Source of the DNA: Candidatus Gastranaerophilales bacterium
GTDB taxonomy: Bacteria; Cyanobacteriota; Vampirovibrionia; Gastranaerophilales; Gastranaerophilaceae
Reading direction: 5' to 3'
Assembly (NCBI GenBank): GCA_947588785.1
Contig: CANPZN010000009.1
Location: 1-40,432 of the forward strand
Length of the DNA stretch: 40,432 nt
Positions within the stretch are counted from its first letter, which is position 1. Each line of letters opens with the position of its first letter. The translations under genes and the position numbers were made by a program. The notes under the pieces are model-generated. The model did not search any database. It was not told where the DNA came from and saw only the letters and a program-made list of their open reading frames with translations. Below, piece after piece: positions 15,930-40,432 of this stretch.

Positions 15930-16060
15930 TAAAGTGATAACCTGGCAACTTTTTCCTCTGTGGAGGGGGGGGTAGAAATAAAAAGGGAACGGGGAGAGAA
16001 AAAGGAAGAGAAAAAGAAGAGAGTGTGTGAGTGAGAGAAGAAAAGGCAGTATAAACAGTA
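15930..16060. other. Homopurine tract with G8 run
   Basis: From about 15961 to 16050 the plus strand is nearly all A and G, including a G8 run at 15965-15972 and GAGTGTGTGAGTGAGAGA, unlike anything else in the window. An open leftward frame crosses it, but the translation is low-complexity and not gene-like. It could form unusual DNA structure or mark a junction of the inserted cassette. Confidence 0.5.
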
Positions 16061-16211: not shown

Positions 16212-17118
16212 ATGAATAATTTTTTTTATTCCGGTTATATACAAGGAAATCACAAAGTAAAAAAAATCCTTGGAATTAAGATTAAAACACAACTTCCCCC
16301 CCCCCCAAGATTTATCTTCATGCCTGTTAAATATCACTCCGCACCTTTATTTACCGAGAATTGAAATACACATTGCAGAACATTGTAATTTGAATTGTAA
16401 AGGTTGCACCCATTTTTCTACTATTGCCGATGCTGAATTTTTACCTGTAACCGAATTTGAAAATGAGATAAAAAGAATATCAGAATTAACAAATAAAATT
16501 GGACTTATTAATATTTTAGGCGGAGAGCCTTTATTAAATCCTAATTGTACTCAATACTTAGAAATAGCAAGAAAATATTTTCCGGATACTAATATAAACT
16601 TAGTAACAAACGGAATATTAATAACATCACAAAAAGATACTTTTTTTGAGAAATTATCACAATATAATATTACATTAGCTCCGACTAAATACCCAATCAA
16701 AATCAAATGGGAAAAAGTCAAAAATTTATGTAAAAAACATAACGTTAATCTTAAATTTTATAACGATGAAAAAGTTTTAAAAACATCTTACAAAATACCA
16801 TTAGACATAACAGGACAACAAAACGAACAATTAAGTTATATAAAATGTCCATTCCCTGGTTGTGTTCAACTTAATAGAGGGAAAATATATAAATGTCCTA
16901 TTGCAGCATACATTGAACATTTCAATAAATATTTTAATCAAAATCTTGAAATATCCGAAGGAGATTATATAGATATATACAAAGCCCAAAATATTCAAGA
17001 AATATTAGACTTTCTAATCAGACCCATACCATTTTGCAGGCATTGTGTTAATAATAAAATTATAAGTGAAATGCAATGGGGAATATCATCAAAAAAGATT
17101 GAAGAATGGATAATATAA
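16212..17118 (+). pseudogene. Phase-variable radical SAM gene, frame off as read
   Basis: The best start is the ATG at 16212, which follows AGGAG. Its frame reads about 34 codons through a C11 tract (16296-16306) and stops soon after, near 16368. The radical SAM domain continues in another frame to 17118. Loss of one C (or gain of two) joins them into a 301-residue protein. The domain has CNLNCKGC (Cys58, Cys62, Cys65 in the joined product), then LGGEPLLNP and TNGILI, with C-terminal cysteines (KCPFPGC, KCPIAAY, FCRHC) of SPASM or auxiliary-cluster type. The N-terminal KKILGIKIK motif is common in surface-polysaccharide enzymes. A TTG at 16270 could give a shorter in-frame product without a good SD. 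Substrate unknown; a slipped-strand switch or a sequencing error fit equally well. Confidence 0.75.
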
Positions 17119-37684: not shown

Positions 37685-38375
37685 TTACTTGTCATGATTA
37701 TCAACATAATCATTAAAACTTTTTGAATCCCAAGTTATATTCGTTTTAACAACTCTTGCAGGATTTCCTGCAATAGCACAATGGGACTGTGAATAAGAGC
37801 CACTAACTACCCCCCCCCCAGCCGATAATTGAATCATCAGCAATAGTAGTATTCTTTAAAATAGTAGAATTTGCACCAATCCAACAATGATTACCTATAT
37901 TTATTCCCTTCACTCTATTTATTATCTTTTGTGTTTCATAATTATATATCGGATGAGCATCTGTATTATAAATATTTATTCCAAATGCAAACATACAATT
38001 TTTGCCTATTTTTAAAAAAGAGTTTGAATTATATGTTATATAAGAAACTTGGGCTAAATATGTATTTTCATCAATAAAGATCTTACTATTTGTCACTTTA
38101 CCATAGTTAGGATGATTATATCCGATAGTTATATTTAATTTTTCAGAAACAATAAATCCTTTTTTTACATAAATTTCATTATTATCTCCAAAAATTTTTA
38201 TAACAATTTTAGCTTTTTTATCAATAGCATTATCTTCAATCACAACCTTATTGTTCATTCCTTCAATCTTTAAACGAATATTCTTATAATTTTTGGAAGG
38301 AATAAAAATTTGATTTAATTTATCCTTTTTTAAAAATCTTAAATAACCAACAATTGATTTTATAATATATCGCAT
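37685..38375 (-). pseudogene. Phase-variable hexapeptide acyltransferase, frame off as read
   Basis: A left-handed beta-helix O-acetyl/acyltransferase of the capsule, O-antigen or exopolysaccharide type. Hexapeptide turns: IGKNCMFAFGINIY, then TDAHPIY (active-site His) and INIGNHCWIGANSTILKNTTIADDSIIGWG. As read, a G10 tract (plus-strand C at 37810-37819) throws the frame and the protein stops at 37803. With nine G the frame continues VVSGSYSQSHCAIAGNPARV to a stop at 37685, the standard C-terminus of this family, giving 229 residues. The start chosen is the ATG at 38375 with AAAGGA upstream; the frame is open to 38420. It is probably acetyl-CoA-dependent and acts in the cytoplasm on a surface sugar. 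Slipped-strand phase variation is the likely explanation; a homopolymer sequencing error is the alternative. Confidence 0.8.
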
Positions 38376-38627
38376 AAAATTTCCTTTAAATCGGAGAAAG
38401 AATGTTTCAAATTTATTCATTAGATAATCGGATTATACTATAACATCAACCTTTTTACAATTTTGAATCATTTTATCCGATATCGTAACACTCCTCGTAA
38501 CTTTTTCAATATGTTATTTTTAATTTTCACTCACACCTTCAAATTATTGTGAAAATATTCCTCATCAAAATTTATCGCAGGGGTTATTTATAAATTTTTA
38601 CAGAGGAAAGGTTAAAAGAGAAAAATT
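38376..38627. other. Intergenic region with no recognised feature
   Basis: About 250 bp. It should carry the leftward promoter of the acyltransferase gene and remnants upstream of the WG-repeat pseudogene. GAGGAAAGG lies near 38605, ahead of a short reading frame at 38628. No repeat-family module is seen. Confidence 0.4.
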
Positions 38628-40004: not shown

Positions 40005-40040
40005 ATCATTACTCCCTTTATTTATTAATTATAAAATAAA

Positions 40041-40432
40041 TTGGTAGGCTAAAGCCTACCCTACTTAAAATCGTAAATAAATATTTTCGTAGGGTGGACT
40101 TTTGTCCATCTATCTACTAATTAAATTGGTAGGCTAAAACCTACCCTACTTAAAATTGTAAACAAATATTTTCGTAGAGTGGATTTAGTCCATCTATCTA
40201 CTAATTAAATTGGTAGGCTAAAACCTACCCTACTTAAAATTGTAAACAAATATTTTCGTAGAGTGGATTTAGTCCATCTATCTACTAATTAAATTGGTAG
40301 GCTAAAACCTACCCTACTTAAAATTGTAAACAAATATTTTCGTAGAGTGGATTTAGTCCATCTATCTACTAATTAAATTGGTAGGCTAAAACCTACCCTA
40401 CTTAAAATTGTAAACAAATATTTTCGTAGAGT
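40041..40432. repeat. 84-bp tandem array, runs off window
   Basis: Units begin with TTGGTAGGCT at 40041, 40126, 40210, 40294 and 40378; the first period is 85 bp and later ones 84 bp. Each holds an imperfect palindrome GGTAGGCTAAARCCTACC and a second inverted repeat (GTGGATTTAGTCCA). Units two to five look identical, while the first differs at several bases. The palindrome is a sister of the GGTAGACTWWAGTCTACC family. Confidence 0.92.

Follow-up and report, generated by a model that had tools for sequence, protein, structure and literature searches.

Why does an acyltransferase gene break off at a run of ten Gs while the ending typical of its family lies beyond the run in another frame? We addressed this question in a window of 40,432 nucleotides (the whole stretch analysed, contig C9 of a Candidatus Gastranaerophilales genome). 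The relevant features of the window are as follows.

37810 to 37819, minus strand (C10 on the plus strand): G10 tract, the proposed switch
37803 to 38375, minus strand: LbH hexapeptide O-acetyltransferase-like ORF in its present reading, 190 amino acids, ending GWGGGS
37685 to 37809, minus strand: family C-terminus in another frame, VSGS...AIAGNPARVVKTNITW..., with a stop at 37685
16296 to 16306, plus strand: C11 tract, a second switch candidate, where the frame of a radical-SAM gene breaks close to its 5' end
16309 to 17118, plus strand: the radical-SAM gene downstream of the C11 tract
15965 to 15972, plus strand: G8 run, in no recognised gene

The minus-strand ORF occupies positions 37803–38420. 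Read from its first ATG (38420) it encodes 205 amino acids and ends ...DDSIIGWGGGS. An ATG at 38375, with AAAGGAA upstream, is the likelier start and would give 190 amino acids. Beyond the tract, another frame reads VSGSYSQSHCAIAGNPARVVKTNITW...DNHDK and then stops at 37685; in full, this reading is VSGSYSQSHCAIAGNPARVVKTNITWDSKSFNDYVDNHDK. The third frame meets a stop at the end of the tract. Since family sequence lies on either side of the tract, both flanking frames are parts of one gene. Besides the frameshift at the tract, no further stop was seen in the pre-tract or post-tract piece. The original prediction described a beta-helix protein ending in GWGGGS at a G10 run, and the standard family ending in another frame. 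Its frames and coordinates are correct. The translation contains the abrupt end, the other frame keeps the AGNPA motif and the closest relative, L032, has the same C-terminal ending (CAIAGNPAKIVKTDITW). The second homopolymer tract that it placed in the window was also found, as the C11 run at the radical-SAM frame break. The G8 run overlaps only a 92-amino-acid mechanical ORF. Dinucleotide shuffles of the window gave a mean of 0.05 G8 matches, versus eight (from three runs) in the real sequence. From the frames, we infer that the assembled copy is OFF, and the phenotype likewise. Elsewhere in the window, a tandem array (84-bp unit, 4.7 copies, 98% matches) spans 40037–40432 and reaches the contig end.

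Homologues of the window gene were detected at E 1e-3 in 39 of the 58 genomes searched, own genome included. L032, from genome G028, is 64% identical in the hit table and 66% identical in the alignment. It carries G9 at the same codons as the window G10, and an uninterrupted ORF of 229 amino acids passes through the run. Hence, with L032 intact at G9 and the window gene broken at G10, two related species present opposite states at one site. Other homologues have plain codons at this position, for example GWRSVVSK in L034. The G run thus looks derived. Further hexapeptide genes also contain runs, at other places than in the window gene. In L033 the frame breaks at a G10 close to the C-terminus, those in L048 and L064 are G9 and in frame, and L041 includes a neighbouring hexapeptide gene with an in-frame G9.

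The window ORF matches the Pfam hexapeptide repeat (PF00132, E 2.2e-8). The best PDB matches of the 200 pre-tract residues are OatWY, the sialate O-acetyltransferase of N. meningitidis (2wlc, E 4.5e-16), and NeuO (3jqy, E 4.3e-12); the match to maltose O-acetyltransferase is weaker (E 9.7e-8). The whole L032 protein matches OatWY at E 1e-22. Among the solved proteins compared, similarity to the polysialic-acid O-acetyltransferases OatWY and NeuO exceeds that to other LbH acetyltransferases. PMC3046976 lists Met108, His121, Trp145, Arg148, Trp195 and Arg197 as conserved active-site residues of OatWY, and describes Trp195, or Trp220 of NeuO, as lining a pocket. The window protein is like OatWY in that M143, H156 and W180 align with Met108, His121 and Trp145. 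It is unlike OatWY in that Arg148 is aligned to Ala, while the position of Arg197 is, by extrapolation beyond the alignment end, probably Ser. W216 of L032 aligns with OatWY W195 and NeuO W220, and the same Trp is present in the window tail past the tract. Hence, the present window product is without the pocket Trp. All six NCBIfam models listed for the pre-tract piece (maltose/galactoside O-acetyltransferase, WbbJ and NeuD) fell far under cut-off, so no exact enzyme name is given. When ON, the enzyme would most likely transfer acetyl groups to a surface polysaccharide, with a presumed acceptor sugar. Two polysialyltransferase-like tract genes occur in the same genome (L121). Scanning of near neighbours of the window gene showed unrelated genes (M48 peptidase, YbjQ, DUF6994) and no glycan cluster.

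The assembled genome comprises 2.1 Mb in 153 contigs, is 93% complete and has a GC content of about 29%. It was searched for a non-G followed by eight Gs and all 79 matches were retrieved, three of them within the window. The genome-wide enrichment on which the original prediction had been staked beforehand is present: 79 G/C runs of at least 8, versus 3.2–3.7 expected when run counts from 153 kb sampled in this genome are extrapolated. That sample had 22 runs of 5, two of 6, none of 7–9 and one of 10. Tract lengths of 8, 9, 10 and 11 account for 12, 27, 31 and 9 cases, respectively, and none is longer. For orientation, PMC6321876 gives the PhasomeIt cut-off as at least seven Gs or Cs, and refers to evidence that runs of at least eight vary in C. 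jejuni NCTC 11168. A rough mechanical sort, with ten promoter tracts reassigned by hand, assigned 23 tracts to in-frame positions inside ORFs, 17 to frame breaks, 10 to promoters, 6 to 5' ends and 1 to a 3' end. The other 22 have no clear gene, and some of them adjoin contig ends. For eight of the 79 tracts, a contig end is no more than 200 nt away, versus 2.3 expected (p 0.002; four distances were tried, with p from 0.002 to 0.03). They are on contigs C19, C23, C30, C49, C62, C69, C89 and C126. The clustering may reflect heterogeneous sites that break the assembly, or repeats.

Pfam was run on 48 tract-linked ORFs and the window gene, giving 49 ORFs, one of which has two tracts. Glycan enzymes, a category defined after the tract genes were viewed, make up 17 of these 49 and 2 of 30 controls (p 0.004). 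The 17 are listed here.

Glycosyltransferases and similar: four GT2, one GT9, two polysialyltransferase-like, one GT6-GT11 fusion
Other sugar and polysaccharide enzymes: UDP-galactopyranose mutase, polysaccharide deacetylase, two hexapeptide proteins
Remaining glycan ORFs: two FkbM methyltransferases, two TupA-like, one AlgX-like

The controls were drawn from 129 ORFs on 20 sampled stretches, of which every fourth (30) was scanned singly. At most two of the 30 are glycan genes (LpxC and a glycosyl-hydrolase-like protein). Hexapep was found in 2 of the 129, and no glycosyltransferase family is among the top 25 of the 225 families tallied over them. For GT2, 4 of 22 genomic places carry a tract (hypergeometric p 0.001–0.003, assuming 1,700–2,100 genes). 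The remaining tract ORFs encode five related GDSL-like hydrolases, transketolase-like, radical-SAM, Kelch and WG-repeat proteins, a response regulator and several family-less proteins. The expected concentration in glycan-modifying genes was thus borne out by the 17 of 49 and by GT2. However, the target set is wider than modifier genes, and includes promoters, transketolase-like and radical-SAM genes and family-less proteins. In L126 (193–1761), one tract gene fuses glycosyltransferase families 11 and 6, with the GT6 model over cut-off; enzymes of the GT11 and GT6 classes make blood-group-like sugars. In L121 (451–2997), the two polysialyltransferase-like genes adjoin and share 60% identity across 200 residues. 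The frame is kept at the run in one and broken in the other, and their runs are at different places.

Homologous tracts also differ in length within the genome. In L098, two adjoining transketolase-like paralogues (57% identity) have a run at the same codon, G9 and in frame in one, G10 and frame-broken in the other. Outside coding sequence, a promoter repeat, TTGCC(C/T)T-Gn-TAAAA(A/G)TGG-TATAAT, has five exact copies with n of 8, 9, 9, 9 and 10. The reversed-sequence control of this repeat gave zero matches. TATAAT lies 2–22 nt from the tract in 13 of 79 cases, at exactly 9 nt in eight, versus a chance of 5.4% per tract (p 0.0003). Poly-G of 8–11 closely precedes TATAAT at these places.

L096: 2000
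L112: 1823 and 3278
L119: 2002
L127: 2000
L125: 1131
L086: 2130 and 5980
L089: 2002
L079: 2002

Most of these ten tracts belong to one repeated promoter, mostly with TGGTATAAT. Poly-G before TATAAT has the layout of a transcriptional switch. The genes behind encode WG-repeat, Kelch-like and signal-bearing proteins among others, and several begin, by eye, with signal-like or membrane-like sequence.

Stability was compared in genus g18. Of the 8 tracts found in 120 kb, 7 have a positional counterpart between two species that are 91% identical. Length is equal in six of the seven syntenic pairs and different (10 and 11) in one. Hence, tracts there are not wildly unstable. UDP-galactopyranose mutase was tried as another comparison of tract length and rejected. 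The tract of the own copy is at none of the 19 other loci retrieved from the own genus; 18 have no run of at least 7, and in L151 the run is inside the gene but at another codon. Tract positions therefore turn over.

We put at roughly 85% the probability that the window G10 is a poly-G contingency locus, now OFF, within a genome-wide phase-variation system. The frames, the L032 copy that reads through G9 and the genome-wide excess of tracts all support the homopolymer switch originally proposed. Briefly, slipped-strand mispairing at replication would alter the length of the G run, and such slippage is presumed to occur in living populations. One length class in three would join the N-terminal beta-helix in frame to the C-terminal AIAGNPARVVKTNITW end, giving ON. 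The other two would terminate at most a few codons from the tract, giving OFF. The assembled copy, read as OFF, retains the residues that align with His and Trp of the OatWY catalytic site. It is without the last coil and the Trp lining the active-site pocket, and is predicted to lack activity. Together, some 79 tracts, partly in coding sequence and partly in promoter spacers, could randomise surface composition, with a putative benefit to the cell.

One competing account is an error of sequencing or assembly, such that the true run is in frame, the gene intact and the tract stable. Runs of G10 are prone to miscounting, the assembly is fragmented into 153 contigs and the G9 copy in L032 is intact. 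However, an error would cover the state of one copy, not 79 tracts versus about 3–4, nor the glycan bias. It would also leave unexplained the paralogues with G9 and G10 and the copies of one promoter with G8 to G10. We regard it as unlikely. It is less probable still that the enzyme has been lost for good, through a single frameshift that landed in the tract by coincidence. The present frame is indeed broken. Against such a fixed pseudogene, family sequence persists both 5' of the tract and in the tail, where the AGNPA motif and the pocket Trp are still present. In addition, the mechanical sort placed 23 tracts genome-wide in frame within ORFs. The odds of this are slim.

Two further accounts leave the DNA unchanged or give the tracts another role. 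Homopolymers are capable of causing programmed ribosomal frameshifting or slippage of RNA polymerase, either of which would yield both products at once from one sequence. Yet homologous copies differ in tract length with opposite frame states, and about ten tracts are in promoter spacers, where translation has no role. We therefore consider slippage during expression very unlikely. The tracts might instead be structural or recombination elements, marking in g18 the joints of exchanged gene halves. Some syntenic g18 tracts do keep the downstream half while the upstream flanks differ. In the own genome, however, tract flanks look by eye unrelated between genes, the promoter repeat aside, and L032 keeps both flanks of the window tract at the protein level. 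This role is highly improbable.

Contingency loci of the kind proposed depend on slippage, which mismatch repair should damp. The own genome encodes MutS1 (E 3.8e-276) and a 598-amino-acid MutL frame without stops. Because both are present, loss of mismatch repair is ruled out as the cause of the tracts; their presence counts against instability. Of the 241 genomes of the order, own included, 204 have MutS1 and 207 MutL over cut-off. Runs of at least 9 number 0–176 per genome among the 219 genomes in the family of the window, with a median of 10. The range is 0–6 in the 22 genomes that belong to other families. These order-wide counts mix target classes and are not usable as counts of glycan switches. 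In the 33 of 219 genomes with MutL under cut-off or absent, the median is 0 tracts, versus 13 where MutL is over cut-off (186 genomes; Mann-Whitney p 4e-7). As 30 of the 33 fall in five genera, the number of independent MutL events may be small. Exceptions run both ways: G032, G171, G130 and G226 have 119, 55, 23 and 21 tracts without MutL, and 16 of the 186 genomes with MutL are tract-free. We treat the association of MutL loss with tract poverty as a lead. Base composition was rejected as the cause of tract-poor genera. Five tract-free genomes lacking MutL have 29–39% GC and the own genome about 29% (18 stretches sampled, 17 of 20 kb and one of 17.7 kb).

Other genera of the order differ in their tracts. 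In sampled genomes of g34, g35, g38, g40 and g43, no MutL is over cut-off and MutS1 is below it; most, though not all, genomes of these genera are tract-poor. In g18 (L187–L206; G194 and G078), tracts are mostly G10 followed by C. Many are in leader sequences, those of prepilin-like genes (...FTLAEVLITLG). Some syntenic sites share the downstream half but not the upstream flank, as if halves had been exchanged at the tract. On contigs C1–C4 of genome G061, tracts are mostly on one strand over long stretches, with a few exceptions, and the strand changes on C2, somewhere from about 210 to 305 kb. This bias perhaps reflects target genes that follow the direction of replication.

The proposed contingency locus has parallels in known systems. 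To our knowledge, Campylobacter is without MutS1 and MutL; in this respect the Gastranaerophilales genome, which has both and presumably belongs to another phylum, is unlike it. Otherwise, the Campylobacter phasome is similar, with many poly-G/C runs in or by genes, a bias to surface modification and homologous loci without repeats (PMC6321876). NeuO of E. coli K1 belongs to a homologous enzyme class and, according to PMC3046976, is under a slippage-prone repeat; its OFF product is truncated and inactive. Unlike the G run near the 3' end of the window gene, the NeuO repeat is a 5' heptanucleotide. For porA of N. meningitidis, a promoter poly-G alters expression (PMC3639595), and some ten tracts of the own genome share this layout. 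They differ from porA in that most belong to a repeated promoter, with genes of unknown function behind it. Replication slippage also switches pili ON and OFF in Bifidobacterium breve, a gut bacterium that is not known to cause disease, where PMC9187656 describes two pilus clusters versus 79 tracts and many gene classes here. In the literature searched, with subscription papers mostly outside it, no report of phase variation in Gastranaerophilales or Vampirovibrionia was found. For phase variation in Melainabacteria, that literature gave only work on flagellin diversity. The kind of system is known from Neisseria and Campylobacter, and the lineage is new as far as the literature searched shows.

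Gastranaerophilales live in the gut and are related to cyanobacteria, but are non-photosynthetic. Across the family, we tentatively propose, at somewhat less than even odds, what may be one of the larger poly-G systems, in which MutS and MutL are kept, target classes vary by genus and tracts tend to be lost with MutL. The target classes may be glycan enzymes and promoters in the own genus, and prepilin-like leaders and exchanged halves in g18. Loss of tracts alongside loss of MutL, if true, would run counter to the usual picture. Since this one family includes genera that have MutL and genera that lack it, the joint evolution of mismatch repair and tract content can be tested there on natural variation. 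In practical terms, gene calls in such assembled genomes may often be off by a frame. The best-known poly-G contingency loci are those of pathogens, and they are usually explained by escape from immunity or phage. A large set of them in an uncultured commensal lineage would be a separate, testable case for the payoff of randomising the cell surface.
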